The notes under the pieces: model-generated
Told to the model about the DNA's origin: nothing
Database searches by the model: none
What the model saw: the letters and a program-made list of their open reading frames with translations, nothing else
Translations under genes and position numbers: made by a program
In this document: positions 32,321 through 49,344 of the stretch, in pieces
Layout of the letters: each line of letters opens with the position of its first letter
Position numbering within the stretch: position 1 is the first letter of the stretch
NCBI GenBank assembly: GCA_021772935.1
Contig: JAJFLA010000052.1
Coordinates: forward strand, 1 to 64,000
Length of the DNA stretch: 64,000 nucleotides
Source of the DNA: Gammaproteobacteria bacterium
GTDB lineage: Bacteria; Pseudomonadota; Gammaproteobacteria; Xanthomonadales; SZUA-36
Reading direction: 5' to 3'

Positions 32321-32362
32321 GGAAACTATGAATAACTTATGAGCTATTCAGAGCTTCCTTAA
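32317..32362 (+). terminator. Hairpin at the aroB stop, possible attenuating terminator
   Basis: TTAAGGAA pairs perfectly with TTCCTTAA, with an inner GAATA/TATTC pair. There is no U tract, so it may slow or protect the message and not end it. It could separate hemE expression from aroKB. Confidence 0.4.
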
Positions 32363-32383
32363 CATTAATCCAATGGGACCAAC

Positions 32384-33454: not shown

Positions 33455-33532
33455 ATTTACAGGCAATACTTTCGTCACTGGCTCGTTGCTCGATGCTTTC
33501 TTAGAATAAGGCAGATCAGGGAGACATTGTTT

Positions 33533-34993
33533 ATGCGTGTTCGACTACTATTGTTCATTAGCGTAATGCTGGTAGCCGTCGTGACGCTATTTCTGTTGCT
33601 ACTTGCCACCGACACAGCACTATCGGTATGGCAGCGTCTAAGCGAAGCGCCTTTATGGTTACAGATAGCTTACACGCTGGTACTGCTGTTGATTTCCAGC
33701 GCTACACTCTGGCTTTCGTGGCGCTGGCTGAGACCTGTTGCCAAGAAGATGCCAAACGAAAACCAAAGCCTGGACCCTCATTCTCTACAGGCGGATCTGC
33801 TGGAGTCTGCAAACGCTGGTGTTGATGTCAGTGCGGCTTTTGAAGAAATTAAAGAGCAGCAAAGACGCAAACAAAGTGGCGAGGTATTCATTGCCATTTT
33901 TGGCGAGATAAGCACTGGAAAAAGCAGCCTGGTTAGAGCATTGTTGCCCAAGGCTGATATGCAGACAGACCCCAGGGGTGGCACCACCCAGAGTATCAGC
34001 CATTACCGATGGCAGGCCGGTTCCGGGGATTCAGTCATCATCGCCGACTTACCGGGTTTTAACCTGGAGAATAACCCTAAGATTCTCGAAGAGGCACGTC
34101 GCGCACACCTCGTTGTATTCCTTTGCGATAGTGACATAACACGCAGCCAGATGAGCCAGCTGGAAAGTCTACTTTCCATACAAAAACCATTGCTGGTTGC
34201 GCTTAACAAAGTGGATCAATTCACAGGTAAAGAAGCACAATCGATCGCCAGGAATATTTCACAACGAATCAGTATCAATCGGGATGATATCGTTTTTATC
34301 CAAACAGGTGGCCATGAAGAGGTGATTAAGCTGTTGAGTGATGGTGGAGAGGAAATCATTGAACAGGACCGCAAACAGGATATTGAACCGCTTCGTGGCG
34401 CACTACAACGTAAGCTGGACAGCAATCATGAGTTAATGGAGCAGCTTCGCGATACTTCGGTCTTGCTGCTGGCCGCCGAAAAGCTGGAACAGGCACGCGA
34501 TGTTCATCGTCAGCAACAAGCAGCTGAGCTGGTGCAGGCTTATTCCAAACGAGCCGTTGTCGGTGCTCTGGCTGCCGTAGCGCCGGGTTCCGATCTCATT
34601 ATCCAGGGCTTGCTGGCCACACGCCTGATAAAGGCCTTGTGTGAGGTTTATGGCGTGTCTGTAAAAGAGGTGGAAATCGAATCATTTCTCAGACTCGCCG
34701 GTGGTAAAGTCAAAAAACTGACCGCCATTACACTGGCCATCATCGGCAATGCGCTTAAGGCTTTCCCTGGGATCGGCACACTGACCGGTGGACTGATACA
34801 CGCCATCGCATATGGCATGATCTTCGACAGCCTTGGTCGGGCGGCTGCAGAAACCCTCGCCAGCCGGGGTGAATTACGTGCATATCCAGCAGCAAAGGCC
34901 TTTGAGGAGATACTGAGTGACAATTTTGAAACAGGTGCAATCCGTTTTGCAAAACTTGCCCTGGCTGAAAAAGGTAAAGACGAAAGACCCTGA
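33533..34993 (+). CDS. Membrane-anchored GTPase, Era-like with DUF697-type C-terminus (first of pair)
   Basis: This is a 486-residue protein starting at ATG 33533 (GGGAG upstream). Two membrane helices lie at about 4-25 and 43-63. The GTPase domain follows: G1 GEISTGKS (124-131), G3 DLPG (172-175) and G4 NKVD (225-228). The C-terminal third is hydrophobic (AVVGALAAVAPGSDLIIQGL, then LTAITLAIIGNALKAFPGIG) and resembles DUF697. The cytoplasmic GTPase domain would therefore be tethered at both ends. Function is unknown; related families act in membrane or envelope maintenance. Its last 77 bases overlap the next gene. Confidence 0.85.
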   Translation: MRVRLLLFISVMLVAVVTLFLLLLATDTALSVWQRLSEAPLWLQIAYTLVLLLISSATLWLSWRWLRPVAKKMPNENQSLDPHSLQADLLESANAGVDVSAAFEEIKEQQRRKQSGEVFIAIFGEISTGKSSLVRALLPKADMQTDPRGGTTQSISHYRWQAGSGDSVIIADLPGFNLENNPKILEEARRAHLVVFLCDSDITRSQMSQLESLLSIQKPLLVALNKVDQFTGKEAQSIARNISQRISINRDDIVFIQTGGHEEVIKLLSDGGEEIIEQDRKQDIEPLRGALQRKLDSNHELMEQLRDTSVLLLAAEKLEQARDVHRQQQAAELVQAYSKRAVVGALAAVAPGSDLIIQGLLATRLIKALCEVYGVSVKEVEIESFLRLAGGKVKKLTAITLAIIGNALKAFPGIGTLTGGLIHAIAYGMIFDSLGRAAAETLASRGELRAYPAAKAFEEILSDNFETGAIRFAKLALAEKGKDERP

Positions 34994-36266
34994 ACAGCAC
35001 CTGATAAATGCCAACCAGCAAATCCAGACATTGCTGACAGATACCGGCGTACCCTCTGCGGTACGGCAGGAATTGCTCCAGGAATTTTCTGAGATGGAAG
35101 CCATCTCGGAAAAATTACAACAAAGTGAGATACATATTGCCGCTTTTGGTCGTGTTGGAACCGGTAAATCATCATTATTGAACGCCTTGCTTGGGCGCAA
35201 GGTGTTTTCCACCAGCCCCTTGCATGGCGAGACGCAATTCAAACAACGTAGCCAGTGGGACTCTGTAAATTCAGACCATGTTGTGTTGGTTGACACACCG
35301 GGTATCGATGAGCTCGATGGTGAAGCGCGTGAAAAAATGGCCACATCTGTGGCCCAAATTTCTGATATCGTCTTGATGGTTTGTGAGGGTGATCTGACAG
35401 AAACCGAATTGACAGCCGTTCGCAACCTCGCTGGGCGTAAACGACCGCTATTATTGGTATTGAACAAGTCAGACCGTTACAGCAGGGATGAACTGAACAC
35501 TTTGTTGAAACACCTGAAAGATCGCTGTAAAAGCTTCATCAACCCCGAAAACGTCCTCAGTTGCAGCGCTGATCCCAGACCCGAAAACATTATCCAGATT
35601 GATCCAGCAGGTAACGAGCATCGTGACGAACGCCCCCGCACCACTGATATCAATGATTTGAAGGTACACCTTTGGAATATTTTGGAAAAAGAAGGCAAAA
35701 CCCTGGCAGCTCTGAACGCGGCATTGTTCACCTCTGAACTGGACGGTCGAATAGCCAGCAAAATTGTGCTCGCCAGGAAAACTGTCGCAGAAAAAATCAT
35801 CCGAAATTATTGCCTGGGCAAAGGTCTGGTAGTGGCGGTAAACCCGATTCCTGTGGCTGATTTACTGGCCGCAGCCGGCACCGATGTCGCGATGATCGTG
35901 CACCTCGGTAATGTGTATGGATTCCAGTTATCCAGGCGCGATGCCAGTAAGTTACTCCTGACCATCTCGGCACAAATGCTTTTGTTGATGAGTGCCTACT
36001 GGGGTGTAAACATGGTTTCCGCAGCGATGAAGACCATTAGTGCCGGCATGTCTGCCGCGCTAACCGCTGGCGCCCAGGGTACCTTGGCCTGGTATGCAAC
36101 CTATGTAACTGGCCGCGCAGCAGAGACCTGGTTTGCAAAGGGTAAATCATGGGGTTCGTCAGGACCTAAAGAAACCATCAATGAAATACTTGACTCACTG
36201 GATCAGGATTCAATTTTACAGTTCGCTCGTAGCGATATTATGGGCAAACTCAAAGGTATACGCTAA
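34917..36266 (+). CDS. GTPase with DUF697-type C-terminus (second of pair)
   Basis: This is a 449-residue protein beginning at GTG 34917, preceded by GAGGAGA, inside the end of the first GTPase gene. There is no N-terminal membrane helix. G1 is GRVGTGKS (78-85), G3 DTPG (126-129) and G4 NKSD (183-186). The C-terminal half contains the DUF697 signature region (GLVVAVNPIPVADLLAAAGT, DVAMIVHLGNVYG) with hydrophobic segments and ends with a soluble tail. The long gene overlap implies a fixed ratio to its partner, so a heteromeric membrane GTPase is likely; no substrate is known. Convergent 4-base overlap with the sulfotransferase at 36263. Confidence 0.87.
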   Translation: MTILKQVQSVLQNLPWLKKVKTKDPEQHLINANQQIQTLLTDTGVPSAVRQELLQEFSEMEAISEKLQQSEIHIAAFGRVGTGKSSLLNALLGRKVFSTSPLHGETQFKQRSQWDSVNSDHVVLVDTPGIDELDGEAREKMATSVAQISDIVLMVCEGDLTETELTAVRNLAGRKRPLLLVLNKSDRYSRDELNTLLKHLKDRCKSFINPENVLSCSADPRPENIIQIDPAGNEHRDERPRTTDINDLKVHLWNILEKEGKTLAALNAALFTSELDGRIASKIVLARKTVAEKIIRNYCLGKGLVVAVNPIPVADLLAAAGTDVAMIVHLGNVYGFQLSRRDASKLLLTISAQMLLLMSAYWGVNMVSAAMKTISAGMSAALTAGAQGTLAWYATYVTGRAAETWFAKGKSWGSSGPKETINEILDSLDQDSILQFARSDIMGKLKGIR

Positions 36267-37846
36267 TCTACGCAGATGCCTGCATTCTCAAGGTACGCTT
36301 TCAAGGGCTGTAATTCACTGGCGAAATTTTTCCATTTATTAACTGATCTGGTATGTGCTTTCTCACGCACCTGCACCGCGCTTGCAGTGGCACTGGGGGT
36401 TTCATTCTGATCAAAATCAAGACAAGCCTGTTCAAAGTCCAACCCCAGTTTACCCAACAAGCTGCGGATCTGGCCTTCCTGGTCAGCAACCAGTGATTCG
36501 TATTCCACTTCAATCACGCGGTTGCCTAAAACTTCCTGCCAATGACAGCGTAAACGGTCATAGGCCACGTAATACCTGCCCAGGCTTTCCAGTGTATAGG
36601 CATACTTGAAAAAAGATTGTTTATACATCGCAAAGCAACTGTCCATCGGGTTTCGCCGGAGATGGATAATATGCGCATCCGGAAAAGCCTTGGCAATAAA
36701 GCCCAGGTAAAGGTAGTTCTCAGGATACTTCTCGATAAAAATGGATTTGTCACTGAGCTTGTAATCCACTGCATTCAAGTATCCATTGGCAATCAGTTTG
36801 ACGTCTTTTTTCGCTGCAGCTGAAATCATTGCTGAACTCATGGTGTCCTTACTTTGAATGCCGCTCACGCGTTTGATCAGGTTCTGCAAAATATAGGTTT
36901 CTTCAGCACTTTCAACCTGTGAATGACTGGAGATAATCCGTTCGGTCAGCGTCGTGCCAGTGCGTGGCAGACCGACTATAAATATGGGGGTTTTGCTTTG
37001 CTTTACCGGCGCGGCTTTACTGCCGCTAGCTGACAGCCACTCTGAATTACAGGTGTCGATAATCTTGTCAATTAACTCGATGTCGGTGCCGACATCGTAG
37101 TCTGCCACCTGGGTAACCGCATCACCCGCCAGTTTGTAGTAGTGAAAGGCCTCCTGCCAACGTTGTAAATCTTCAAGCTCCTTGCCTATTGCGTAGTAAA
37201 TGAAGATGTTCTTTTCCGCTGGCAGCCTGGTGGCATTCAAAACTTCTAACATCTGCTCAAGGTGTGAAGAGTCTTCCACCTTTTCCAGGCGGGATAATTC
37301 GTAATGGTTGCGCTGGTGATTGGGGTGTCGTGCAAGCAAACCCTGGTAGATGGTTTTTGCTTGCTTGATTTTACCCAGGTAGACCGCGCTTGCAGCCAGG
37401 TTTGCCTGGAACATATCCAGGCCCGGCTGTAATTCATTGGCTTTTTGATACAAGGGCCAGGCGCGTGCGTGTAAGCCGAGCCTTGAATAAATATTCGCGG
37501 CCATATCGAGATAAAGCGGACTGTTACCCAAATGGGTTTCATATCGCTTTAACAGCCTCAATGTCTCGCCATGACGCTGCACAATTGCATACTGGTTAGC
37601 TAGTTCTATCGCTGCATCATAACGGCCAGCATCAAGACTCAGCGCTTTCGAAAATGCAGCCATAGCCTTGACACCTTTTCCAGCAGCTTTAGCCACCAGG
37701 CCGGACAGGAAATAACCTTCAGGGTTTTTTTTAGCCAACTTGGTTATCCGGTTGGCATACATACTAACCGCTGCCCAATCTCCAGCCTGGACAGCTTTCC
37801 TTGCGATGGCGCTAAACCTTGAGAGATTACTATTCACATGATTCAT
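36263..37846 (-). CDS. TPR-containing sulfotransferase (tandem copy 1)
   Basis: This is a 527-residue protein. Residues 1 to about 240 hold TPR-like repeats of helical hairpins (AMAAFSKALSLDAGRYDAAI, and LYQKANELQPGLDMFQANLA). The sulfotransferase domain starts near 285 with the PAPS 5-prime phosphosulfate loop VGLPRTGTTLTERI (292-299 core) and has the 3-prime phosphate motif HLRRNPMDSCFAMYK (395-409). Both are intact, so it is probably active with PAPS. The GLPRTGTT loop and TPR partner domain recall bacterial and eukaryotic tyrosine-sulfotransferase-like enzymes, which suggests a peptide or protein acceptor; that is inference. It is 42 bp from a paralogue of equal length on the same strand. 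Confidence 0.88.
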   Translation of the reverse strand: MNHVNSNLSRFSAIARKAVQAGDWAAVSMYANRITKLAKKNPEGYFLSGLVAKAAGKGVKAMAAFSKALSLDAGRYDAAIELANQYAIVQRHGETLRLLKRYETHLGNSPLYLDMAANIYSRLGLHARAWPLYQKANELQPGLDMFQANLAASAVYLGKIKQAKTIYQGLLARHPNHQRNHYELSRLEKVEDSSHLEQMLEVLNATRLPAEKNIFIYYAIGKELEDLQRWQEAFHYYKLAGDAVTQVADYDVGTDIELIDKIIDTCNSEWLSASGSKAAPVKQSKTPIFIVGLPRTGTTLTERIISSHSQVESAEETYILQNLIKRVSGIQSKDTMSSAMISAAAKKDVKLIANGYLNAVDYKLSDKSIFIEKYPENYLYLGFIAKAFPDAHIIHLRRNPMDSCFAMYKQSFFKYAYTLESLGRYYVAYDRLRCHWQEVLGNRVIEVEYESLVADQEGQIRSLLGKLGLDFEQACLDFDQNETPSATASAVQVREKAHTRSVNKWKNFASELQPLKAYLENAGICVD

Positions 37847-37888
37847 CAGCTATTAACAGGCATCAACAAAGCTTCGGCCGGTAATGAT

Positions 37889-39472
37889 TTAATCAACCCT
37901 GATACCCGCTTTTTCAAGGTGTTCCTTCAACGGTTGCAACTGTTTCGCGTACCGTGTCCATTTATTGACTGATTTGTTGTGGACTTTTTCCCGTACTTGC
38001 ACAGAACTTGCGGTAGCGCTGGGTGCTTCATTCTTATCAAAATCCAGGCAGGCCTGCTCAAACTCCAGTCCCAGCTTGTCCAGCAGGATACGTGTTTGGT
38101 TTTCCTGATCGCCCACCAAGGATTCGTATTCAACTTCGATGAGACGGTCTTTCAACACATCTCGCCAGTGACGACGCAGCCGATCATAGGCCACAAAGTA
38201 CTGACCCAAACCATCGAGCGAATAGGAAAACTTATAAGCCCATGTAAATACCTGTTTATACATTGAAAAACAAGAATCCATCGGGTTTCTACCAAGATGA
38301 ACGATACGCGCATTCGGCCAGGCTTTAGCGATCAACCCAAGAAAAAGAAAATTGAATGGCAGCTTGTCGATGAACATGGGCTTATCACCGAGTCTGTAGC
38401 TCACCGTGTCCAGATAGCCTTTTGCAATCAACGCCAAATCTTTTTTTGTTACGGCCTCAATCATCTCCGGATTCATGTTCTCAATACTCTGAATACCACT
38501 TTCCTTTCGCAATACCATCTGCAGAAACATCGTCTCACCAACACTTTCCACCTGTGAATGACTGGAAACAATTCGTTCGGTCAGCGTTGTGCCGGTACGC
38601 GGCAAACCAACGATAAATATCGGTGTTTTTTCGGTTTCATCTACTGTTGGTTTGCCTGTCTCGCTTGCCAGCCAGTCAGCACTGCAAACCTCGATGATTT
38701 TATCGATAAGTGCAATATCCGCAGCAACATCATAATTGGCAACACTGCTTACAGCGTCACCAGCCTTCTTGTAATACTCGAATGATTGCTGCCATTGCTC
38801 CAGGTCTTCCAGTTCCTTGCCCAGTGCGTAATACAAAAAGATATTTTTGTCCGCGGTATCTGCATTGCCCTGAAGAAGCGTCTCCATCTGTTCAATATGT
38901 GTGGTGTCCTTTGCCTTACCCAGCCGGGATAACTGGTAATGGTTCCGCCGGTGGTTTGGAAAACGTTTTAACAGCGTCCGGTAAATATCGCGGGCTTCTT
39001 CAATTTCCCCCAGGTAAACACTACAGGCGGCGAGGTTTGCCTGAAACAGGTCAACACCCGGCTGCAAAACGTTAGCTTTTTTAAACAAAGGCCAGGCTTT
39101 TTGGGGCATGCCGATTTCCGTGTAAACAGTGCCGGCCAAATCCAGGTACATAGGACTGTTGTCCAGCTTTCCTTCGTATTTTTCAAGAAGCGCGAGCACC
39201 TCATTGTTGCGCCGTGCAACCGAATACTGATTAGCCAGCTCAATTGCAGCATCATATCGATCTGCATCCAATGACAATGCCTTCTCAAATGCGGCCGCAG
39301 CTTTTGCAGGCCTTTGTGAAACTCTTTGAACGATACCAGTCAGAAAGTACCCCTCCGCGCTGTCGCTGTTTCGCAGGAGAATTTCATTGGCACAACTGGC
39401 GACTGTCGACCAATCCTGTGATTGAACGGCTCTTCTGGCCACATCGCTGATTTGTGAGAGTTCGATTTTCAT
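37889..39472 (-). CDS. TPR-containing sulfotransferase (tandem copy 2)
   Basis: This too is 527 residues and aligns end to end with copy 1 without apparent large gaps: TPR-like repeats to about 240, VGLPRTGTTLTERIVSSHSQ for the PAPS loop and HLGRNPMDSCFSMYKQ for the second PAPS motif. The first Arg of the latter motif (LRRNP in copy 1) is LGRNP here. The C-termini are nearly the same (KWxxxxxxLQPLKxxLExAGIxVD). This is a tandem duplication that has diverged. It is transcribed first in the pair and is divergent from the methyltransferase gene at 39577, with a shared promoter region. Confidence 0.88.
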   Translation of the reverse strand: MKIELSQISDVARRAVQSQDWSTVASCANEILLRNSDSAEGYFLTGIVQRVSQRPAKAAAAFEKALSLDADRYDAAIELANQYSVARRNNEVLALLEKYEGKLDNSPMYLDLAGTVYTEIGMPQKAWPLFKKANVLQPGVDLFQANLAACSVYLGEIEEARDIYRTLLKRFPNHRRNHYQLSRLGKAKDTTHIEQMETLLQGNADTADKNIFLYYALGKELEDLEQWQQSFEYYKKAGDAVSSVANYDVAADIALIDKIIEVCSADWLASETGKPTVDETEKTPIFIVGLPRTGTTLTERIVSSHSQVESVGETMFLQMVLRKESGIQSIENMNPEMIEAVTKKDLALIAKGYLDTVSYRLGDKPMFIDKLPFNFLFLGLIAKAWPNARIVHLGRNPMDSCFSMYKQVFTWAYKFSYSLDGLGQYFVAYDRLRRHWRDVLKDRLIEVEYESLVGDQENQTRILLDKLGLEFEQACLDFDKNEAPSATASSVQVREKVHNKSVNKWTRYAKQLQPLKEHLEKAGIRVD

Positions 39473-39516
39473 ATTAATTAGACCAGGTTCATGAGCACTG
39501 TAAAAAGTTGGGAGTA

Positions 39517-39543
39517 TTGTTATCGAATTACGATTGTTATACT
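39517..39543 (+). promoter_or_regulatory. Candidate promoter for the methyltransferase operon
   Basis: TTGTTA (39517-39522) and TATACT (39538-39543) are separated by 15 bp, which is short; TATTGT two bases upstream gives 17 bp. The -10 element is good. It lies 34 bp before the methyltransferase ATG in the divergent region. Confidence 0.4.
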
Positions 39544-39576
39544 AGTACATTAAGCCACGCAAACAATTCCAAACGC

Positions 39577-40548
39577 ATGAACAAACAAAACCCTGACAAC
39601 TCACAGGTAGCCAGTAGCTGGAACTCTTACTGGCACGGCACTGGCGATGTTGGCGCCTACTCAAGTGGTGGTGTCAACCACCCGGTTATCCTGGCATTCT
39701 GGAAAGATTTCTTTCAGAGTGTAAAACAGGATTACGCTCAACCAAGAGTCATCGACATCGCCAGTGGCAACGGTGCTGTGGTTGAACACGCGATGGCCGC
39801 ACTCGGTAATCAATACCCCGATTTCACCTGCCTGGACGTATCCGAAGCGGCTATTGCAAATATTCGCGGTAGGTTTCCCCAGGTAAACGGTATTGTTACC
39901 GATGCACGCAGCATTCCATATGATCAAGGCAGTTTTGACATTGCCACCAGCCAGTTTGGCGTTGAATACGCCGGTGTGGAGGCCATCAATGAGACTGCGC
40001 GTTTGCTGGCAGTCGGGGGGCGGCTTGCGTTTTTATTGCACAATCAGGCGGGTAGTATCCATCAGGAATGTTTGGAAAGCCTGGACGCCGTCGTTTGCTT
40101 GAAAGAATCCCGGTTTATTCCGTATGCAATCGAAATGTTCGACGCCGGTTTCAAGGCTGTACGTGGTGCGGATCGAACGGCGTATGAACTAGCTGCAAAA
40201 AATCTTGCGCCAGCGATCAGCGCACTTGAGGCCGTTATGAAAAAGTATGGTCAGCACGTTGCCGGCGATACCATATCTCGTCTTTATAATGATGTCGGCC
40301 AAATTCATGAGAGAATTCAACATTATGATCCAAGTGAGATTCTGGGCTGGCTGAATGAAATGGATGGCGAGCTTAACGCCTACGCAGGACGTATGTCATC
40401 CATGAGCAAGTCTGCCATCGACAGCGCATCATTTAAGCAAATACGCGAAGGACTCCGTAACCGGGGCCTCACGATAGACCGCGCAGAGCCTTTAGTTATT
40501 CCGAACCAGGAGCTGCCGTTGGCCTGGGTCCTCATCGCGACAAATTAA
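39577..40548 (+). CDS. Class I SAM-dependent methyltransferase
   Basis: This is a 323-residue protein; ATG 39577 (MNKQNPDNSQVASSW) was chosen over the longer open frame. Motif I is VIDIASGNGAV, followed by the acidic FTCLDVSEAAI and ATSQFGVEYAGV for motifs II and III, as in the UbiE/type-11 methyltransferases. The second half (after about residue 165) is helical and unique to this group. The substrate is unknown. It heads a plus-strand run of four genes and is a candidate tailoring enzyme in the sulfotransferase locus. Confidence 0.85.
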   Translation: MNKQNPDNSQVASSWNSYWHGTGDVGAYSSGGVNHPVILAFWKDFFQSVKQDYAQPRVIDIASGNGAVVEHAMAALGNQYPDFTCLDVSEAAIANIRGRFPQVNGIVTDARSIPYDQGSFDIATSQFGVEYAGVEAINETARLLAVGGRLAFLLHNQAGSIHQECLESLDAVVCLKESRFIPYAIEMFDAGFKAVRGADRTAYELAAKNLAPAISALEAVMKKYGQHVAGDTISRLYNDVGQIHERIQHYDPSEILGWLNEMDGELNAYAGRMSSMSKSAIDSASFKQIREGLRNRGLTIDRAEPLVIPNQELPLAWVLIATN

Positions 40549-40583
40549 ACACATTAATTGCTGATTAAAACAAGGTTACAGAT

Positions 40584-41039
40584 ATGGAAAAAAACACGGA
40601 AAAGCCGGGACGGAAAGAGCTGGACGTCTGGATAAAAAAGCAACTCGATGCAGCAGTGCGAAAATTGATGAAAGAGGGTGTTGTTGACAGCCTAATTGTT
40701 GAGGCAAAACCATCCTGGGTACTGCCATTTCAGATATTGATCGGCAAAATTCGTGCACAAGCCCAATCAAATGATTTCGAATGGTTTATTTGCGGTGAAG
40801 TTCCGACAGACTACGTGGCTGCTACCGCGGCATCTACACCCAGAGAGACAGCAAAACATTTTGCACTGAAATGGCAACTCGCTGCGGCCAGGCATGAAGA
40901 AAAGATGGCACAAGATCAAACTGAAACGACCGGGGAAACACAACAAGTTGATTCCAGCCGTCAACTCATCGGTCACGCGGAGGCATTGTATGAACTGGTA
41001 GAAATTGACGGCTTGTGGTTGACACAAAGCAATTCGTGA
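40584..41039 (+). CDS. DUF4826-like protein, function unknown
   Basis: This is a 151-residue predicted cytoplasmic protein. WIKKQLDAAVRKLMKEGVV, WVLPFQILIGKIRAQ, DFEWFICGEVPTDYV and STPRETAKHFALKWQLAA match the layout I know for DUF4826 (W-V/I-x-Q/K, then W-x-I-G-G-x-x-P-T-D, then A-R-E-x-x-x-H-F-x-L-x-W-Q). The family is widespread in gammaproteobacteria with no role assigned. It is 35 bp after the methyltransferase and 41 bp before the next gene, so it is in the same transcript. The tie to the locus may be accidental. Confidence 0.7.
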   Translation: MEKNTEKPGRKELDVWIKKQLDAAVRKLMKEGVVDSLIVEAKPSWVLPFQILIGKIRAQAQSNDFEWFICGEVPTDYVAATAASTPRETAKHFALKWQLAAARHEEKMAQDQTETTGETQQVDSSRQLIGHAEALYELVEIDGLWLTQSNS

Positions 41040-41080
41040 GCCATGCGCAACGTAAAAAACAGCTTTGATCCGGAAATAGA

Positions 41081-42157
41081 ATGCTCATAAAAACAACGGA
41101 TTTCCAAATTACCCCGTCGGCGTTGCTGTTTGACCCGGAATACTACATTTTTGATTTTATGCCGGAAAAGGATTTGACCAGATTTCTCGCGGTCGACGAA
41201 AGCAATCTGGCGCTTGCGCCTTTTGTGGACATTCGCTTTGAACCGCTTGCACAAGGTCGGTTTTCCATGTCCACAAAAGAATTATTGGCGCTGGAGGGAA
41301 CGCACAATATCCAGCGTCCTGAAACGGTCTTTATCTTTCATCATGCTTTTGTCTGTTCAACCTTGCTGGCACGTTGTCTGAATCAGATCGATGCTTTTTT
41401 CAGCCTCAAAGAACCCTGGATTTTAAGACGTCTGTCTGATTTTAAGCGCACACAGGGGCGGAAAATACCGCGTAATCAGTGGCGTAGAATGTTCACTTGT
41501 TATGTAAATCTACTGGCTAAAAACTATCACGGTGGCAGGACGCCCGTCATTAAGGTTACGAATGTAGCAAACAATCTGATCACAGACGTACGAAAATATC
41601 TGCCAACACGGAAAATTTTATACCTGTACTCTGATCTGGATAGTTTTTTAGTTTCAAACCTGAAAAAACCACACGACACCCAAATAAAAATGCCTGGTCT
41701 GGCGAATGCATTTCTGTCAGATGGTAATTTTGCACAGAGATTCCCTCATTTCAGTGATGTAAAAAAACTGTCTTTTCTGCAAGTATGCACGTTGATCTGG
41801 CTGATAAACCTATACAACTTCCAACGCAGCACCGCAAAGTTTGATCCGGCGCAGATTAGAACACTCAAAATGGAAGATTTCCTCGCTGATATGGCTGGAA
41901 GTTTGCATAGTCTCAGTCGCTTTTTTGGGCACAAGGTCTCGCCATCGGAGATCAAAAAAATGCTGGCCCCGGAAGTTACTCAAACAGATGCCAAACACCA
42001 GCACGTTTCTTATGGCAGGCACACAAAAGAGGCGGAACATGTGCAGGTTTTGAACAAGTACAGTGTTGAAATTGAAAAGGTTCAGCGCTGGATCACCCCC
42101 CTGATTGAGGAGCTCGGGGTGTTGGATTACTGCAGGAATAACCAACTTGGAAAATAG
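41081..42157 (+). CDS. Divergent sulfotransferase-like protein
   Basis: This is a 358-residue protein. VFIFHHAFVCSTLLARCLNQ has the position and hydrophobic frame of a sulfotransferase PAPS loop, but the Gly-Ser/Thr core is replaced (V-C-S-T-L-L where R-x-G-S/T-T is usual). A second segment, LPTRKILYLYSDLDSFLVSNLK, resembles the 3-prime phosphate motif. Such proteins are grouped with P-loop sulfotransferase-like families of unknown activity. It may still bind PAPS or may act as a pseudoenzyme partner of the true sulfotransferases here. It precedes a short ORF and the 2OG oxygenase. Confidence 0.65.
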   Translation: MLIKTTDFQITPSALLFDPEYYIFDFMPEKDLTRFLAVDESNLALAPFVDIRFEPLAQGRFSMSTKELLALEGTHNIQRPETVFIFHHAFVCSTLLARCLNQIDAFFSLKEPWILRRLSDFKRTQGRKIPRNQWRRMFTCYVNLLAKNYHGGRTPVIKVTNVANNLITDVRKYLPTRKILYLYSDLDSFLVSNLKKPHDTQIKMPGLANAFLSDGNFAQRFPHFSDVKKLSFLQVCTLIWLINLYNFQRSTAKFDPAQIRTLKMEDFLADMAGSLHSLSRFFGHKVSPSEIKKMLAPEVTQTDAKHQHVSYGRHTKEAEHVQVLNKYSVEIEKVQRWITPLIEELGVLDYCRNNQLGK

Positions 42158-42160
42158 ATA

Positions 42161-42217
42161 ATGACTGACTTTACCCATACGAACCCACTGGCTGAACGAA
42201 CCTGGGGAAACAAGTGA
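42161..42217 (+). CDS. Short ORF (18 codons) coupled to the oxygenase gene
   Basis: ATG 42161 lies 3 bases after the previous stop. The frame encodes MTDFTHTNPLAERTWGNK and ends in TGA that overlaps the oxygenase GTG as GTGA. The GGGG ribosome site of the oxygenase lies inside it. GGAAAATAGATA is a weak ribosome site for it. It could be a leader peptide for translational coupling, a small precursor peptide for the neighbouring enzymes, or chance. There is no Tyr, so it is not a tyrosine-sulfation substrate. Confidence 0.3.
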   Translation: MTDFTHTNPLAERTWGNK

Positions 42218-42933
42218 TAAATCCAAATCTGGACACAAGCAAGCTCGCTCAGTCATTTAGAATAGACGAACGGCTAATGATTGATAACTTTTTGCTGCCT
42301 GAAGCGGCGGAACGAGTTCACGATGCCTGTCTTGATAGTATTCCCTATAGCCTCCAGTATGTACTCGATGGACAGTACCAGAGCAAAAGCCCCGAGGAGA
42401 TTGCAAAGCTTAGCCCCCAGGAAGGGCAGGATATCAACACCAGGATTTCGGCAGCCGCGAGCCAGGGTGTCGGTTTTCTTTACGATGCTTACCTGAAAAG
42501 CAAAGTGAAAGCCGACCCGGAGCGAGCACATAATGAGAAGTTGGCATTTCTCCATCATGTTTTTAATTATATTTGCAGCGAAGAAGTCCTTTCCCGCATT
42601 CGCGATATTACCGGCGATGACGACATCACCGGGGCCGAACCGCAATATACACGCTTTTCACCCGGACACTTTCTCACTCGGCACCAGGACGTGGTGCCCG
42701 GAAGAGAACGACGTATTGTATTCATGCTCGGAATGAGCAAAGACTGGCATCCGGACTGGGGCGGTTTACTGCAATTTTATGAAGAAAATGGTACCCCCCG
42801 CGACGCCTGGGTACCCCGGTTTAATGTGTTGTCTATCTTCGCTGTGAAACATATACACGCGGTGACCTATGTCACGCCCTATGCAACAGCACCAAGACTA
42901 TGCTTATCCGGTTGGTTTGTGGCGAGGGCTTGA
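42214..42933 (+). CDS. 2-oxoglutarate/Fe(II)-dependent oxygenase (prolyl 4-hydroxylase-like)
   Basis: This is a 239-residue protein starting at GTG 42214; an in-frame TGA 19 bases upstream excludes a longer form. The jelly-roll domain has the iron ligands His157-x-Asp159 (RHQD), the distal His215 in HIHAVTYV, and Arg228 for 2-oxoglutarate. YTRFSPGHFLTRHQD and VFMLGMSKDWHPDWGGLLQF match the P4Hc/PKHD-type family that acts on peptidyl or small-molecule substrates. All catalytic residues are present. It is co-transcribed with the methyltransferase-sulfotransferase-like set and is convergent with the sulfotransferase at 42970. Confidence 0.85.
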   Translation: MINPNLDTSKLAQSFRIDERLMIDNFLLPEAAERVHDACLDSIPYSLQYVLDGQYQSKSPEEIAKLSPQEGQDINTRISAAASQGVGFLYDAYLKSKVKADPERAHNEKLAFLHHVFNYICSEEVLSRIRDITGDDDITGAEPQYTRFSPGHFLTRHQDVVPGRERRIVFMLGMSKDWHPDWGGLLQFYEENGTPRDAWVPRFNVLSIFAVKHIHAVTYVTPYATAPRLCLSGWFVARA

Positions 42934-42969
42934 AACAAAGGCTCTCTGGAAAACAGGTAAGTCTGCTAT

Positions 42970-43815
42970 TTACAGGAATTTCGGCGGGATGTATTTGAAC
43001 CTTTGCATTTGTTGTCGGTGACTTTCTACGATTCGCTCCACTTGCGCATCACTGAGTTCATCAACCCACTGGTTTTTCCGACCCTTACGAAAAAATTTCT
43101 TTGAATTCTGGCTGCACTCAATAAAACCTGTGTCCATTTCCTGTTTTTTTAATTCAGCAAAAGAAGAAAACTGGATAGCTCGCTTAATTCCATTCTTGTC
43201 TTTCCCTCGTCCCAGCAGCCTGGCAACCTGCCCAAAAGCCTTGAGTGGTTTATCCAACATATCCTCGTAACGTACCACCACGACCTGCTTGTGCGGCTTA
43301 CCGGTCCAGCTTTCAACATGATTGGACCATGAGCCGAGAAAGCTAACCATGTTTTCCATATTACTGGGTGTGCCGGTCTCTTCATTAGCCATAAAATTAA
43401 TAGCGTCATCAACAGCAAGACCAAAATGATCGGCCGTTGAAAGCACAACATCCAGGGGGTTTCTAACGATGTAAATTGCAGCCGACATAACAGAGACGTT
43501 ATGTAGTGGGTGGCCATTGAACTTGCCAAAGCGGTTGTGGGTCTTGGTGAAAATGCTGCCGCGTGGCCGTGAGGCCGCAATCTGGCGATGCACAGCGCTT
43601 TTGAGACTGATGATTTCTTCATCGTCGCATTCTTCCGGCGACTTGCCAGCCAGCATTGGTATATACCATCGTGGATCTGACTCGGATTCAAAATAGTCTG
43701 TCAGTATAGCGATCCGTCCCGGTTTTGAGGGCTGTTCTATCAGGTTATAAAGAAAGGCCCTTAGCCATGTATTACCGGATTTTGGATAAGTTGCAAGCCA
43801 GACAATGTTTCCCAT
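42970..43815 (-). CDS. PAPS-dependent sulfotransferase (classic sulfotransfer_1 type)
   Basis: This is a 281-residue enzyme. WLATYPKSGNTWLRAFLYNL is a textbook PAPS 5-prime loop (YPKSGNTW), TKTHNRF has the catalytic-base His of cytosolic sulfotransferases, and YIVRNPLDVVLSTADHFG is the 3-prime phosphate motif (RNP). KKFFRKGRKNQWVDEL near the C-terminus matches the conserved RKGxxxxW region. Acceptors of this type are hydroxyl or amine groups of small molecules or glycans. It is read toward the 2OG oxygenase and follows the TonB receptor terminator. Confidence 0.93.
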   Translation of the reverse strand: MGNIVWLATYPKSGNTWLRAFLYNLIEQPSKPGRIAILTDYFESESDPRWYIPMLAGKSPEECDDEEIISLKSAVHRQIAASRPRGSIFTKTHNRFGKFNGHPLHNVSVMSAAIYIVRNPLDVVLSTADHFGLAVDDAINFMANEETGTPSNMENMVSFLGSWSNHVESWTGKPHKQVVVVRYEDMLDKPLKAFGQVARLLGRGKDKNGIKRAIQFSSFAELKKQEMDTGFIECSQNSKKFFRKGRKNQWVDELSDAQVERIVESHRQQMQRFKYIPPKFL

Positions 43816-43939
43816 GCATCACACCTTCACGCAAATCAGGATAGAACCGAATGATTATCTCATCTTCAGATAGCATTATCAGACACCGACTTCAAAAGCA
43901 CATATATATCGAAGACATATTTAGATATTTTAAACAACA

Positions 43940-43965
43940 AAACCCCGGTTAAAAAACCGGGGTTT
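43940..43965 (-). terminator. Rho-independent terminator after the TonB receptor
   Basis: An 11-bp perfect stem (AAACCCCGGTT with AACCGGGGTTT) with a 4-base loop, followed on the minus strand by TTTTGTTGTTT. A second perfect GCCGCC/GGCGGC hairpin lies just before it at 43981-43996. Confidence 0.85.
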
Positions 43966-44031
43966 GTCTTGGATCTGCGAGCCGCCCTTAGGCGGCCCTT
44001 CTTCGTAACTAACTAAGCAATAACCAGCTTA

Positions 44032-46953
44032 TCAATAAGCCCACTTAAGGCGCAGGAAATACCCGGTACCAAACAAGCGGTAGGTTGATGGATCTGTGGA
44101 TCCATTAAAACCAGTTTCGATAAATGGTGGAGCTTTATCAGTGATGTTGGTGATACCAGCAGTTATGCTAGTTGTGCTACCAAATGAATCAAACGTGTAA
44201 CTGGCAGTTATATCATGATATAGGAAAGAGTTAATATCCTGAATATAGGTGCCATCCGGTCGGTTTCCGGCGCCACAATTACAGAAGGTATCCGCATCCA
44301 GACTACTGATGAACTCTGCCAGGTAATTGATTGTGAGATCATTCCTGGACCATGCAAAACTGAAGTTGGCTTTATCTTCAGCAAATGCAGCACCTTGTGC
44401 ACTACTATATCGACCGACAAAATCTTCTGATGGAACAGCGTCAGAATTCTGAATTTCACGATCCAAGTTGTGAGTCCACAAAAGAGAGGCCTTAAACAGA
44501 CCAATATCGGTTGCGGTATCCCAACGAAATTCTGTATCAATACCGCTGGCGGACTCAGTAGAAACATTCAGGTTAGCATTCAGAATGTTATTAATGGAAT
44601 AATCTGAATCGTTATTACGCGTAATCAATGCGCATGCAGCCGCATCCGAATTAAGATAACACTGGTCCAGGATAAATTGAACACCAAGTGCACCAATGCC
44701 CTCGTCCAGATCAATCTGCCAGTAATCAACAATCACAGTAAAGTTATGATCGCCAAACTCGGGTGTCCACACAACACCTGCTGTGAATGTTTCACCGGTT
44801 TCCGGCTGAAGGTCTGGATTACCACCAACACGTGCCAATACCTGTGTATCAGTCTGGTTACTCACCTGACTACAACCGGCTGGCAGTGTCTGTCCAGCGC
44901 CAATAGCACATGGGTCGGTAAACTGCGGGAAGCTGTCAACCACGCCACCGAACAAATTACCGATGGTCGGGGCCCGGAAAACAGTACCAAAGGTTGCTCT
45001 AAGCTTCAACGATTCTGCTGCTACTACCTCGAGACCTATCTGGTAGGTTTCGTCACTACCAAAGGCATCCCAATCGTCATAACGCACACCACCTTTTAAA
45101 TCGATTCTTTGTGTACCGTTATCATATAGCGGTGCCAGGAACTCACCATAAAAGGCGTTGTTAGTCAGGTGGCCGTCAGTACTCGCACCCACATTACCGG
45201 TTACCGCACCGATGGTCTTGGCCGAATCAAGAATAACAGCCAGCTCCTGTTTCCAGTAGCTCCAGCCAAAGGCCCAACCGATTTCACCACCTGGCAACTC
45301 AAAACTCGAGCCTGCCAGACTCGCACCGGCGGTACGCTGTCTTTGGCTGATGGAATCAATGGTATCAAGGCTGATGTAATCCAGCATCTCTTGAGTCAAT
45401 GTTGTAAGGGTGGGAGTACCACCCGCATCAACAACGCCACCACCGAACAAATTCAGAGGCACACAGCCCACGATTAAGGTAGATGGATTGTTGATGTCCG
45501 CATAACATTCAGGTGCGCCATCGCCATTTAGATCAGCTGATGGTCCCAAAGCATTAAACAGGCGACTTCCGGCAAATTGACCGAAGTCCCGACTTTGATT
45601 GTTGCGATGACCTTCATTGATGAAAACGTCCCAGTTCATATCGTTGAACTCGCCCTCAAGACCTGCAGTCCACTGATACTGGGTGATTTCTTGTTCAAAA
45701 CGACGATTGGTTTCGATCATACGCCGACGTGGATTAACCACAGGTTCATAGCGCAAAGATGTACCGTTGGCCGCATTGTAGGCATCAACTGCCCGGCGCA
45801 GGTAGAAGTTATCCTGAGAAATACCGGTAAAAGCTACGGTTTCTCCTGTATCCGGATCATCAAAAAAGCCGTTGAACATTGGATCGCCACCGGTAAACGG
45901 TAACGGTGCCAGTTGCTGTGCTGATTCGCGGAAATTGCCACGGAATTCTGAGTTAAAACGAATGTTGTCTGTCAGGTCAAAGTGACCTTCAGCAAATATA
46001 TTGGTTCGCTCATATGGTGTTTGCAGGAAGTTAACCGGCGCATAATTGTATGTACGACCATCGTGCGGAGTCATCAAACCAACTTCGTTGGGTGATGATG
46101 CCGGGGTACCGATCAGGAACAAACCCTGGGTTAAAAATGGCAGACGGCTCTCTGGAATACGTGAAGAACCAATCGGGTAACAACCACCTGTTGGCGTACC
46201 ATCGTAAGGTGCTGCAACCTGATTTTCGCAACCTTCAGGATAGATGTAGAACGAATTCTGCATGAAGTCCCAAGGTGTATCACGTTGGAAAGCTTCCTCT
46301 TGCTTCACAAACTCGGCACCAAAAACGAAGTTGCCCTTGTCAAACTCTCTACCGGCGATCAGTGAAAATGAATCCTGCTGACCTGCAGTGTCAAACCAGT
46401 CATTTGTCTGTGCAGTCACTTCGATGCCTGTGAAATCACGCCGAGTGATGATATTTACAACACCCGATACCGCATCAGCACCGTAGATGGCTGAAGCACC
46501 ATCTTTCAAAATTTCTACGCGTTCAATCATGGTTGACGGAATGGCCTGAAAATCACCACCATCTACAACACGTCTGCCGTTAACCATCGTCAGGGTACGG
46601 GATGTGCCCATACCGCGAAGGTCAATCGTTACTGAACCGTTACCACCATTGTTGGTCGTGGTACCGATAGGCGAACCAGACATGGAAGGTATGCTTTGTA
46701 GCAGATCACCAATATCGGTCAGACCCTGCATTTCCAAATCTGCTTGATCAAGAACGGTTACCGGGCTTGCGCTATCAATGTTTGCGCGCCTGATACGTGA
46801 ACCCGTGATAATCACCTCTTCAATCGCGAGATCTTCATCCGCATCCGCGTCGGCTTCCTGTGCGAAAACATTGGGTGCTGAAAAAGCCAGCACACCCGTG
46901 CTTACGCCCAGCGCGAGCTGAATCGCTAATTTTAAATTACTGTTTGTTGACAT
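44032..46953 (-). CDS. TonB-dependent receptor, large
   Basis: This is a 973-residue outer-membrane transporter. The signal peptide runs to about residue 31 (VFAQEAD). EEVIITGSRIRRANIDSASP is the start of the plug after an acidic stretch, and IERVEILKDGASAIYGADAV is the plug end. The barrel follows with Cys pairs in extracellular loops (GCENQVAAPYDGTPTGGCYP). There is no FecA-type STN domain, so no direct sigma signalling. The C-terminus ends LRLKWAY, typical of beta-barrel proteins. Receptors of this GSRI type in Alteromonas-, Sphingomonas- and Caulobacter-like groups often lie beside TPR-sulfotransferase or 2OG-oxygenase genes; ligand type is unknown. AGAGGA precedes the ATG. Confidence 0.94.
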   Translation of the reverse strand: MSTNSNLKLAIQLALGVSTGVLAFSAPNVFAQEADADADEDLAIEEVIITGSRIRRANIDSASPVTVLDQADLEMQGLTDIGDLLQSIPSMSGSPIGTTTNNGGNGSVTIDLRGMGTSRTLTMVNGRRVVDGGDFQAIPSTMIERVEILKDGASAIYGADAVSGVVNIITRRDFTGIEVTAQTNDWFDTAGQQDSFSLIAGREFDKGNFVFGAEFVKQEEAFQRDTPWDFMQNSFYIYPEGCENQVAAPYDGTPTGGCYPIGSSRIPESRLPFLTQGLFLIGTPASSPNEVGLMTPHDGRTYNYAPVNFLQTPYERTNIFAEGHFDLTDNIRFNSEFRGNFRESAQQLAPLPFTGGDPMFNGFFDDPDTGETVAFTGISQDNFYLRRAVDAYNAANGTSLRYEPVVNPRRRMIETNRRFEQEITQYQWTAGLEGEFNDMNWDVFINEGHRNNQSRDFGQFAGSRLFNALGPSADLNGDGAPECYADINNPSTLIVGCVPLNLFGGGVVDAGGTPTLTTLTQEMLDYISLDTIDSISQRQRTAGASLAGSSFELPGGEIGWAFGWSYWKQELAVILDSAKTIGAVTGNVGASTDGHLTNNAFYGEFLAPLYDNGTQRIDLKGGVRYDDWDAFGSDETYQIGLEVVAAESLKLRATFGTVFRAPTIGNLFGGVVDSFPQFTDPCAIGAGQTLPAGCSQVSNQTDTQVLARVGGNPDLQPETGETFTAGVVWTPEFGDHNFTVIVDYWQIDLDEGIGALGVQFILDQCYLNSDAAACALITRNNDSDYSINNILNANLNVSTESASGIDTEFRWDTATDIGLFKASLLWTHNLDREIQNSDAVPSEDFVGRYSSAQGAAFAEDKANFSFAWSRNDLTINYLAEFISSLDADTFCNCGAGNRPDGTYIQDINSFLYHDITASYTFDSFGSTTSITAGITNITDKAPPFIETGFNGSTDPSTYRLFGTGYFLRLKWAY

Positions 46954-47318: not shown

Positions 47319-48197
47319 TTAATCATGTTTCAATTTTATGTTGCCACTGAAACTTTCGACCCGAATTTCAGCACCATCGCTACCGGAAACATGTTTTAAA
47401 TGACTGCCTGGACCATGTTTCGCATGATTAACCGAGCCAAAATCTGTGTATATTCGGCCGCTGAAACTCTGGGCTTTGAACAGGCCGGACTGGGATACCG
47501 GTAAGATAATGATGACATCACCGCTCATACTTTCAGCACTCAATCGTCCGTTGCCGGAAATTTCGCCTGTTGCCGTTATGTCGCCAGATACCGTTTCCAG
47601 TTTGGCACTTTCCACGGCACCTGCGTACAACACCATATCGCCGGAAACCGTGGTAGCTGCAATCTCTCTGGAAATATCAGATAAATCAATATCGCCCGAT
47701 ACTGATTCGGCAGAGATGCGCTCGGTATGACCACTAAAGTCAACATCTCCACTAACCGATTCAATAGATACCCACTGACTTGACGCATCGATATCAACAT
47801 CACCACTGACAGAATCTGCAGTCAGTTTTTCATTATCCAAACCTGAAACCTCAATATCTGCACTGACTGCTGAAGCATTTACATTCGCTCCGTTCGGAAC
47901 CATTAACTTCAAATAAGTGCTATCTATATTCCTTTCATTCCGGTTAACCACATTGATTTGTAAATTGGATTTAGTTGCGCTTATTTCCACTTCGTCAACA
48001 CTATTTCCCAATTCGCCAGTCAGCTGAGCTTCACTTCGCTCCCAACCCTCGATAACAATTTTCCCAGCAACATTCTCGATGGAAATTGTTGCTTTCGCGT
48101 CGATGTCCCAGCGTTCATCAATAGACTCTCCAGCGAATGCTAACAATGGTGTCAGCGCCAGCAAGGCACCGATAAACTTCAGATTTCCCGTACTCAT
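47319..48197 (-). CDS. DUF4097 beta-helix envelope protein
   Basis: This is a 292-residue protein. ATG 48197 (MSTGNLKFIGALLALTPLLA) overlaps the upstream stop as ATGA and has GGAGAAGG; it has a signal peptide ending at AFAGES. The mature protein repeats a short unit of the type SVSGDVDI, VSGDIDL, SMSGDVII, SFSGNIKL, typical of DUF4097/DUF4098 right-handed beta-helix proteins. Related proteins sit next to ECF sigma/anti-sigma pairs or PspC-type membrane stress systems. Here it is the third gene after the sigma and the anti-sigma-like genes, suggesting it is either an effector or a sensor of that regulon. Confidence 0.87.
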   Translation of the reverse strand: MSTGNLKFIGALLALTPLLAFAGESIDERWDIDAKATISIENVAGKIVIEGWERSEAQLTGELGNSVDEVEISATKSNLQINVVNRNERNIDSTYLKLMVPNGANVNASAVSADIEVSGLDNEKLTADSVSGDVDIDASSQWVSIESVSGDVDFSGHTERISAESVSGDIDLSDISREIAATTVSGDMVLYAGAVESAKLETVSGDITATGEISGNGRLSAESMSGDVIIILPVSQSGLFKAQSFSGRIYTDFGSVNHAKHGPGSHLKHVSGSDGAEIRVESFSGNIKLKHD

Positions 48198-48742
48198 GTC
48201 CTTCTCCAATTATTTTGCTCCAGCAACGCAAGCTGTTTAACGAACTGTAATTGCTGCGATCTCAAATCCAGCAGTTTTCCGTTCAAATAAATATTCGATG
48301 GGTATTGCCGCAAAGCGGCCAGCAAAGAAGTTTCTGCTTGTTGTAAACCTTCCCAACTTGCCCTCAAAGCATCTGGCTCTTCACCTTCAAGACGAAGACC
48401 GGAATAATCAAGTGGTACCAGTTCACGAAAGGCGGCCTGGTACTCTCGCTCAGTCGCCTCTACTGTGCCAACCAGTGCGAACTCCCACATGGTTTGCAGT
48501 GGCTGCCCAGCTGGCCCCGTACCCACCCCGCGACCAATGAAAATACCGGTGGCCAATGCCAGTAAAACTGCCGCCGCCATCGCTGGCGTACGCCATAGTG
48601 GTGCCTTGTAAAAAGTATTGTCGACATTGCCAACCGTCCCTAGCCGCTTGTTGATACCAGACCACAAATCACGTTGTGGCTTGATGCTACGTGGCAATGC
48701 CGCGATTGCACTTTGTAATTCAGTTTCATTCATCTCTTTCAC
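48194..48742 (-). CDS. Probable anti-sigma factor (single membrane helix)
   Basis: This is a 182-residue protein, 8 bp after the ECF sigma gene. A short N-terminal cytoplasmic part (ELQSAIAALPRSIKPQRDLW SGI) precedes a membrane helix at about 50-68 (PAMAAAVLLALATGIFIGRG). The C-terminal 110 residues are helical and would lie in the periplasm. There is no zinc-binding HxxxCxxC motif, so it is not a ZAS-type factor; the assignment relies on size, topology and position. Start is GTG 48742 or ATG 48733. Confidence 0.7.
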   Translation of the reverse strand: MKEMNETELQSAIAALPRSIKPQRDLWSGINKRLGTVGNVDNTFYKAPLWRTPAMAAAVLLALATGIFIGRGVGTGPAGQPLQTMWEFALVGTVEATEREYQAAFRELVPLDYSGLRLEGEEPDALRASWEGLQQAETSLLAALRQYPSNIYLNGKLLDLRSQQLQFVKQLALLEQNNWRRT

Positions 48743-48750
48743 AACATCCT

Positions 48751-49344
48751 TCAGCTATTGTCAGTATCCTTCAATACTTTCCTGACTAATTTCCGGGCAC
48801 GATGTAATTGTGCCTTGGAAGAACCAACCGCCATTCCGGTCATTTCTGCAATTTCACTGTGCTGGTAACCTTCGATGTCATATAACACCAGCACTGTTCT
48901 TGCTCTTTCCGGTAACTGGGCAATGGCGGCTTCGAGGTCTCTTCTCAAACCCGCTGACACATCCCGCTCACCAACCAATGTGCGATCCAGATCATCGCTC
49001 AATTCTCGTTCACGTTGTAGCCGTTTTAACTGGCTACGGCGATCACTCAAAACAACATTAACCGTCAAACGGTGTAGCCAGGTTCCGAACTTGCTATCAC
49101 CTCGAAACAGGTCAAGCTTGTTCCATGCCCGGACAAACGCTTCCTGCACCATGTCTTCCGCCAACGCCTTGTCACCACCACACATACGCCAGCAAAGTCC
49201 GTATATTCTTCCGCAATGGCTGCGGTAAATCTGTTCAAATGCAAGATGATCTCCGGCCCGAGCCTTCTCGACCCAACGCGTTTCGGTGGCGGACAATTCT
49301 TTCTTGTCGTGCTGCCACGTTGTCACCGCTTGCATTCCTCCCAT
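48751..49344 (-). CDS. ECF RNA polymerase sigma factor
   Basis: This is a 197-residue sigma-70 family factor. Region 2 is FEQIYRSHCGRIYGLCWRMC followed by AEDMVQEAFVRAWNKLDLF and GTWLHRLTVNVVLSDRR; region 4 is IAQLPERARTVLVLYDIEGY QHSEIAEMTGMAVGSSKAQL. It is of the RpoE/group with SigW-type length. The 49345-49699 gap carries its promoter. It heads an operon with a membrane anti-sigma-like protein and a DUF4097 protein, so the likely trigger is an envelope signal. The exact start is uncertain: the GGGAGGA site lies between the two N-terminal Met codons. Confidence 0.92.
   Translation of the reverse strand: MGGMQAVTTWQHDKKELSATETRWVEKARAGDHLAFEQIYRSHCGRIYGLCWRMCGGDKALAEDMVQEAFVRAWNKLDLFRGDSKFGTWLHRLTVNVVLSDRRSQLKRLQRERELSDDLDRTLVGERDVSAGLRRDLEAAIAQLPERARTVLVLYDIEGYQHSEIAEMTGMAVGSSKAQLHRARKLVRKVLKDTDNS

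Follow-up and report, generated by a model that had tools for sequence, protein, structure and literature searches.

A 64,000-nucleotide stretch of a gammaproteobacterial contig (GenBank JAJFLA010000052.1; hereafter the window) carries, at 36263–46953, eight open reading frames (ORFs) around a TonB-dependent receptor (TBDR) and two tandem sulfotransferases with tetratricopeptide repeat (TPR) domains, TPR-ST1 and TPR-ST2 (Table 1). The linkage of this core, TBDR plus tandem TPR-STs, is conserved. We read the block as a mobile, functionally coherent cassette with cytoplasmic enzymes that modify a polypeptide, its own receptor being the likeliest target, and assign this reading a probability of roughly 0.4; that the receptor is what the enzymes modify is something we infer.

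A collection of species genomes scanned with TPR-ST2 returned 29 loci (close relatives only), in which gene presence was scored by tblastn; some of the 29 contigs are apparently the same as stretches of G014, G026, G031 and G034 that were also analyzed. An orthologous TBDR (50–76% identity) accompanies TPR-ST2 within the block in 27 of the 29, and contig ends truncate the two loci without it (L112, L128). A second TPR-ST likewise occurs in 27 loci; it is missing from L127 and L133, the latter near a contig end, and is fragmented in L129. The methyltransferase (MTase) was found in 20 loci, the DUF4826 protein in 16, the 2-oxoglutarate (2OG) oxygenase in eight, the divergent, predicted sulfotransferase-fold protein ST_HH in four, and the PF00685 sulfotransferase at 42970 (ST1) in none. 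The loci span Woeseiaceae metagenome-assembled genomes to Alteromonas, Mangrovimicrobium and Hellea. In the smallest versions (e.g., L135, L137 and L138), TBDR, TPR-ST2 and TPR-ST1 all share one strand, with ~57 bp between the TBDR and TPR-ST2 matches of L138. Between the TBDR and the TPR-STs of the window, and of the loci nearest to it, the opposite strand holds the MTase, DUF4826, ST_HH and 2OG genes; in L132 and L134 the receptor lies on the other side of the TPR-ST pair; and in L117 and L119 the 2OG and ST_HH genes give way to a PF13469 sulfotransferase and a gene resembling Asp/Asn hydroxylases (PF05118, as checked in L119).

The reciprocal search, with the receptor against 369 genomes of the class (E ≤ 1e-150), found three non-self TBDR orthologues, and all three have MTase and TPR-ST2 alongside. 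L271, one of these loci, and L120 are apparently a single contig. In L269, which belongs to another family, the gene order differs: the locus includes TBDR, DUF4826, MTase, TPR-ST2, a second TPR-ST, ST_HH and a distant 2OG (28%). L270 gave a match to one TPR-ST. The first-pass annotation of this DNA had proposed a candidate new locus, allowing that its genes might prove scattered in related genomes; for the core genes they are not, and the linkage holds in both directions (27/29 and 3/3). The neighborhood that it had suggested searching for, a TPR-sulfotransferase with a TonB receptor and a prolyl 4-hydroxylase (P4H), was recovered for the receptor and, in 8/29 loci, for the oxygenase. Its inclusion of the 42970 sulfotransferase as a member of the locus does not stand: ST1 is an extra outside the conserved block, and its two closest homologues (L233 and L234; 74% and 62%) have neither TBDR nor TPR-ST in sight.

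The pairing extends across the order. PF13469 occurs in 52 of the 61 order genomes drawn, with many frames long enough to include a TPR arm; a genome of the same genus, G007, has the most matches (27). We took the first 40 distinct sites by score among the listed matches, outside the family, with a frame of ≥500 aa and a start >8 kb, and as controls 20 stretches lying 100 kb upstream of the first 20 sites permitting it. With a plug profile iterated over all stretches fetched, controls included, a TBDR plug was detected within 6.5 kb at 23/40 TPR-ST sites versus 0/20 controls (Fisher p=3.8e-6 if sites are independent, which those from the same genome are not; two stretches are cut by contig ends). 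At 18 of the 23 positive sites, by our count, the TBDR is next to a sulfotransferase frame. Other partners at the 40 sites were MTase-like (4), ST1-like (1) and Asp-hydroxylase-like (1) genes, with 2OG and ST_HH at none, and all were at 0/20 in the controls. The genome under study has 38 plugs, and all three of its loci with PF13469 frames >500 aa have a TBDR in the same gene block. In L164, from another family, a TPR-ST-sized frame, an ST1 homologue, a TBDR with a GSRI motif and a methyltransferase-like gene lie side by side.

Receptor cassettes are exchanged at one chromosomal site. Comparison with relatives' empty sites delimits the inserted stretch as 36267–47318, between a DUF697 GTPase and a DUF4097–extracytoplasmic function (ECF) sigma factor group. 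The GTPase is present in 24 of 39 family genomes, and downstream stretches were taken for 18; the window, L089/L245 (G018), L240 (G010) and L093 (G002) add four to the survey, and G033 and G023 (contig ends) were left out. Both flanks were resolved in 16 genomes, seven with an empty site and nine with a filled one; the remainder are G002, G010, G017, G023, G033 and G038, which meet contig ends, and G003 and G027, where DUF4097 was not found after the GTPase. At the empty sites (L249, L250, L252, L254, L255, L256 and L259), ≤~135 bp separates the GTPase from DUF4097. The ECF, hypothetical and DUF4097 genes belong to the site and not to the cassette, as they are present also at empty sites. A TBDR occurs in eight of the nine fillings (Table 1), and in seven the TBDR is accompanied by a sulfotransferase, an oxygenase or a methyltransferase, or by more than one of these. 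G014 has an empty site and carries the orthologous block on a different contig (L068, L256), which fits the block moving as a unit. The window contains no tRNA gene, the direct repeats are short and imperfect (17 nt, 88%, at 36202 and 47322), and there is no clear GC shift. In two genomes of the genus (L085, L093), TPR-ST and ST_HH genes, joined in L085 by 2OG, lie between URO-D and GTPase1; insertions there (the DHQS/URO-D/GTPase neighborhood, at 31232–36266 in the window) suggest that more than one insertion point is used.

The enzymes point to a protein substrate. TPR-ST2 carries a TPST-like catalytic domain behind a TPR superhelix: in a model with a predicted local distance difference test (pLDDT) score of 93, the N-terminal half resembles TPRs of the O-GlcNAc transferase (OGT)/SPINDLY type and the C-terminal half TPST1/2 (Foldseek and phmmer). 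In the fold search, polyketide and mycobacterial sulfotransferases rank below the TPSTs; in the sequence search, a cytosolic one does. The catalytic domain matches 3ap1 at 1.5e-10, best among sulfotransferases, and TM-scores by target are 0.62–0.71 versus the human TPST chains listed. The catalytic residues of TPST2 are R78, E99, K158 and S285 (PMC5562738). R292, E313, K370 and S489 of TPR-ST2, positions counted by hand on the alignment, correspond to them and are invariant in 47/47 sequences of alignment A2, which includes both tandem copies. The differences from TPST1/TPST2 are that TPR-ST2 is bacterial, that a TPR superhelix precedes its catalytic domain, and that no signal or anchor is apparent on reading its sequence (no predictor was run). 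OGT and SPINDLY likewise have a TPR superhelix N-terminal to the transferase domain, which transfers a glycosyl group in those enzymes and a sulfuryl group in TPR-ST2.

ST_HH had no significant profile match to the TPR-STs or to the 42970 sulfotransferase, so a fold search was used. With a model built from five sequences (pLDDT 78.5), all 24 PDB matches at E ≤ 0.001 were sulfotransferases, with moderate TM-scores. ST_HH, the degenerate sulfotransferase proposed earlier at 41081, is predicted to adopt a sulfotransferase fold, and its 5′-phosphosulfate loop is altered. Among solved structures, the 2OG oxygenase comes nearest, with weak matches, to 4iw3 (1.6e-4) and 4nhx (1.2e-3), which we take to be a bacterial EF-Tu prolyl hydroxylase and OGFOD1, a ribosomal-protein prolyl hydroxylase, respectively. 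The first-pass annotation had left modification of a peptide or the receptor, of a glycan and of a metabolite side by side; the first is now better supported than the other two, given that TPR-ST2 has protein sulfotransferases as its closest relatives of solved structure and the 2OG oxygenase presumably has protein hydroxylases.

Domain scans covered the eight cassette proteins and 12 flanking ones, 20 window proteins in all. Among them we found no backbone enzyme, carrier protein, nonribosomal peptide synthetase (NRPS) or polyketide synthase (PKS), in keeping with what had been reported earlier, and no exporter or inner-membrane transporter, secretion genes (including type I), MbnB/MbnC or MATE domain, glycosyltransferase, polymerase or glycan transporter, or glycoside hydrolase or sulfatase domain of the kind that marks a polysaccharide utilization locus. 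Neither a precursor peptide nor NRPS/PKS genes were seen in the intergenic spaces examined. A precursor of a ribosomally synthesized and post-translationally modified peptide (RiPP) inside the cassette was considered and rejected: short ORFs were listed in the two longest intergenic spaces and in the divergent TPR-ST2/MTase space, and by eye nothing conserved was shared. The regions upstream of the TBDR, compared by eye for the window and 10 loci, had in common only a cold-shock-like gene (66 aa), seen 5′ of the TBDR in the orthologous loci L111 and L115 and not in the window.

We favor a polypeptide, and most probably the receptor, as the substrate, because no precursor, backbone enzyme, exporter or transporter was seen, the receptor is the sole non-enzyme gene of the cassette apart from DUF4826, the TPSTs are the nearest relatives of TPR-ST2, and TPR arms occur on the sulfotransferases and on the oxygenase of a sister cassette (L253:3064–4953), a 629-aa fusion of TPRs with a PF13759 2OG oxygenase. 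In the proposed mechanism, the TPR arm of each sulfotransferase would hold a polypeptide in the cytoplasm, as in OGT, and the TPST-like domain would sulfate it from 3′-phosphoadenosine 5′-phosphosulfate (PAPS). The oxygenase, methyltransferase and other sulfotransferases could then add further marks. The substrate would most likely be the unfolded precursor of the cassette's own receptor, and the modified receptor would reach the outer membrane with altered surface loops. Supply of PAPS, flagged earlier as a point to check, is consistent with this: APS (adenosine 5′-phosphosulfate) kinase domains are encoded elsewhere in the genome, in a 642-aa frame (C26) and a 185-aa frame (C54).

Several observations weigh against receptor modification. 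TPST-like sulfotransferases may act on non-peptides, and the top fold match of ST_HH is a polyketide sulfotransferase, that of the curacin PKS. No TBDR appeared at 17/40 order-wide TPR-ST sites, and long sulfotransferase frames without a TBDR also occur in two of the 20 controls (L182, L184). With the window's proteins as queries, an insensitive check, a TBDR or TPR-ST was recognized at 8/20 stretches matching 2OG and at 4/16 matching ST_HH. Near ST1 homologues, a TBDR or TPR-ST was present in 7/11 stretches (L233–L243), the positives being L235–L241, of which L238 has weak TBDR support, L239 a TPR-ST alone, and L241 an ST1 seen through L273. Acidic tyrosine sites are not enriched in receptors linked to TPR-STs: 22 core and 25 order-wide linked TBDRs have 1.32 and 1.41 per 1000 aa versus 1.49 in 36 unlinked frames of this genome, 33 of them with a plug hit (p=0.57 and 0.74). 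Tyrosine content is 4.5% in linked versus 3.3% in unlinked TBDRs, a difference that may reflect subfamily only. Receptor residues that track the 2OG gene were not counted as evidence, being confounded by descent: the best column differs by 0.82 versus a random-set 95% level of 0.72 (five residue types only), and most of the receptors that come with 2OG are related to one another. The best ST_HH-tracking column equals its random-set level (0.76) and was not counted either. Mirror-tree correlations (TBDR/TPR-ST2 r=0.61, 22 loci; TBDR/TPR-ST1 r=0.60, 17; TPR-ST2/TPR-ST1 r=0.90, 19) were not used because shared descent explains much of them.

Among the alternatives, small-molecule tailoring fares best and is a possibility to be taken seriously, if a doubtful one. 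The enzymes would sulfate, methylate and hydroxylate a metabolite, for instance an imported aromatic or a compound of siderophore type, and uptake of the product or the starting compound would fall to the TBDR. The UbiE/BioC-like character of the MTase and the curacin match of ST_HH suit this explanation, as does the methanobactin precedent: those operons hold a TonB-dependent transporter and some also the sulfotransferase MbnS (PMC3621798). Two points stand against it: a backbone enzyme, carrier, exporter and inner-membrane transporter are all missing from the 20 window proteins scanned, and the enzymes of solved structure closest to TPR-ST2 use proteins as substrates.

An improbable alternative is that the enzymes modify a RiPP or secreted protein encoded elsewhere, with the TBDR as its receptor, as proposed for RaxST. 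The TPST-like domain of TPR-ST2 would suit such a substrate, and RaxST of Xanthomonas is described as a functional bacterial tyrosine sulfotransferase (PMC4216712); neither a conserved small ORF in the spaces inspected by eye nor a secretion gene among the 20 window proteins scanned was seen here. Modification of a surface glycan or lipopolysaccharide, with the receptor incidental or a glycan importer, is quite unlikely. Other PF13469/PF00685 members act on glycans, and TPR-ST1 has a weak partial match to the nodulation protein NoeE (5.6e-10, 38.5 bits, cut-off 500); however, the best solved sulfotransferase matches are TPSTs and the scans yielded no glycan-building or glycan-transport gene. 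Finally, that the genes are independent neighbors in a gene-trading hotspot without joint function is very unlikely: the same site does hold RND-efflux-like genes in L262 (by eye) and, in L251, a hydrolase together with a TBDR, and homologues of the extra genes are often located elsewhere, but the core set is also found away from this site, in different gene orders and in other families, and no control had a TBDR.

The cassette can be likened to known bacterial sulfotransferase systems, the Rax and methanobactin loci, yet their defining features were not seen where looked for. RaxST of Xanthomonas is, like the TPR-STs, a bacterial sulfotransferase supplied with PAPS, and a polypeptide is its proposed target (PMC4216712); here a TBDR and a TPR domain are present, and neither a precursor ORF in the spaces examined nor secretion genes among the scanned proteins were seen. 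The methanobactin operon likewise places a sulfotransferase beside a TonB-dependent transporter (PMC3621798), whereas no MbnB, MbnC or MATE domain was found among the 20 window proteins scanned; the sulfotransferase-type proteins here number four, accompanied by a methyltransferase and a 2OG oxygenase. The arylsulfate sulfotransferase of a gut bacterium is presumably another kind of enzyme than the TPR-STs. A TonB gene is reported near one such enzyme (PMC10932419). The literature searched (listed titles and abstract starts, without bioRxiv preprints and most subscription journals) yielded neither a TPR-sulfotransferase/TonB-receptor pairing nor an assigned substrate for TPR-bearing sulfotransferases. 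The parts belong to known families, and their conserved, exchangeable combination appears to be undescribed in that literature.

More speculatively, and with doubt outweighing confidence, Proteobacteria may carry widespread, exchangeable 'receptor-editing' cassettes, in which TPR-armed sulfotransferases or 2OG oxygenases and companions (methyltransferases, further sulfotransferases, sometimes a radical-SAM/B12 enzyme) sulfate, hydroxylate and methylate the accompanying TBDR, changing its ligand choice or hiding it from phages and bacteriocins. Modification of the cassette's own receptor, if true, would mean a sulfated outer-membrane receptor and would parallel, in bacteria, the tyrosine sulfation of eukaryotic surface receptors; how TonB-receptor inventories of genomes are read, and views on ligand specificity and on the use of receptors by phages, would then need rethinking. 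The recurrent pairing with a TonB receptor gives TPR-sulfotransferases a concrete, testable partner.

Table 1. Genes of the 36263–46953 block, the flanks of the insertion site, and the contents of filled sites. Positions are those of the window unless a locus is named.
Feature	Position	Strand	Assignment or content
TPR-ST1	36263..37846	-	TPR repeats + PF13469 Sulfotransfer_3 (3.5e-45); second of tandem pair
TPR-ST2	37889..39472	-	TPR superhelix + PF13469 (2.8e-45), TPST-like sulfotransferase domain
MTase, class I S-adenosylmethionine (SAM) methyltransferase	39508..40548	+	PF13649 (7.8e-11)
DUF4826 protein	40584..41039	+	PF16108 (3.2e-21)
ST_HH, divergent sulfotransferase-fold protein (predicted)	41081..42157	+	Loop FIFHHAFVCSTLLARCL; without Pfam family
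2OG-Fe(II) oxygenase, P4H-like	42214..42933	+	PF13661 2OG-FeII_Oxy_4 (1.2e-20)
ST1, PF00685 sulfotransferase	42970..43815	-	1.4e-27
TBDR, GSRI motif	44032..46953	-	Plug + TonB_dep_Rec barrel
DUF697 GTPase	34917..36266	+	Left flank of insertion site, outside cassette
DUF4097 - hypothetical - ECF sigma genes	47319..49344	-	Right flank, outside cassette; also at empty sites
Filled site, window			TPR-ST/TBDR cassette described here
Filled site, L246			Four TPR-STs, MTase, TBDR, ST1 homologue
Filled site, L248			TBDR + PF13759 oxygenase
Filled site, L089+L245			ST_HH, MTase, two TBDRs, regulators
Filled site, L251			TBDR + hydrolase
Filled sites, L253 and L258			TPR-ST, 629-aa protein, TBDR
Filled site, L257			PF13759 oxygenase, MTase, TBDR
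Filled site, L262 (G021)	L262:1368-5746		Resistance-nodulation-division (RND)-efflux-like genes (by eye), without TBDR

All eight ORFs were located at the coordinates given earlier, and seven were assigned by Pfam. The two TPR-sulfotransferases, SAM methyltransferase, P4H-like oxygenase, PF00685 sulfotransferase and TonB receptor of the first-pass annotation were each confirmed by ORF and Pfam match; the DUF4826 gene had been missed. For the MTase, an ATG at ~39577 is by eye a likelier start than the TTG at 39508. In a search of defense families, two of the eight proteins matched, the MTase to mad2 (1.2e-9) and the oxygenase to a CRISPR-associated 2OG model (7.1e-13), both through general enzyme domains; a search of phage families with six proteins gave one weak, general methyltransferase match.

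A few neighboring observations concern sister sets. The 629-aa protein of L258 (2893–4782) is a lookalike of the L253 fusion by size, start and position. A protein with radical-SAM and B12-binding domains (L240:4154–6724) adjoins a TBDR/sulfotransferase set, and L235:9298–11823, which starts like it, is also beside such a set in a different family; a protein of this type is a possible further modifying enzyme. In the genome under study, the second APS kinase domain (G000:C54:135322–136442; L003, L109) adjoins a PF00685 sulfotransferase domain.

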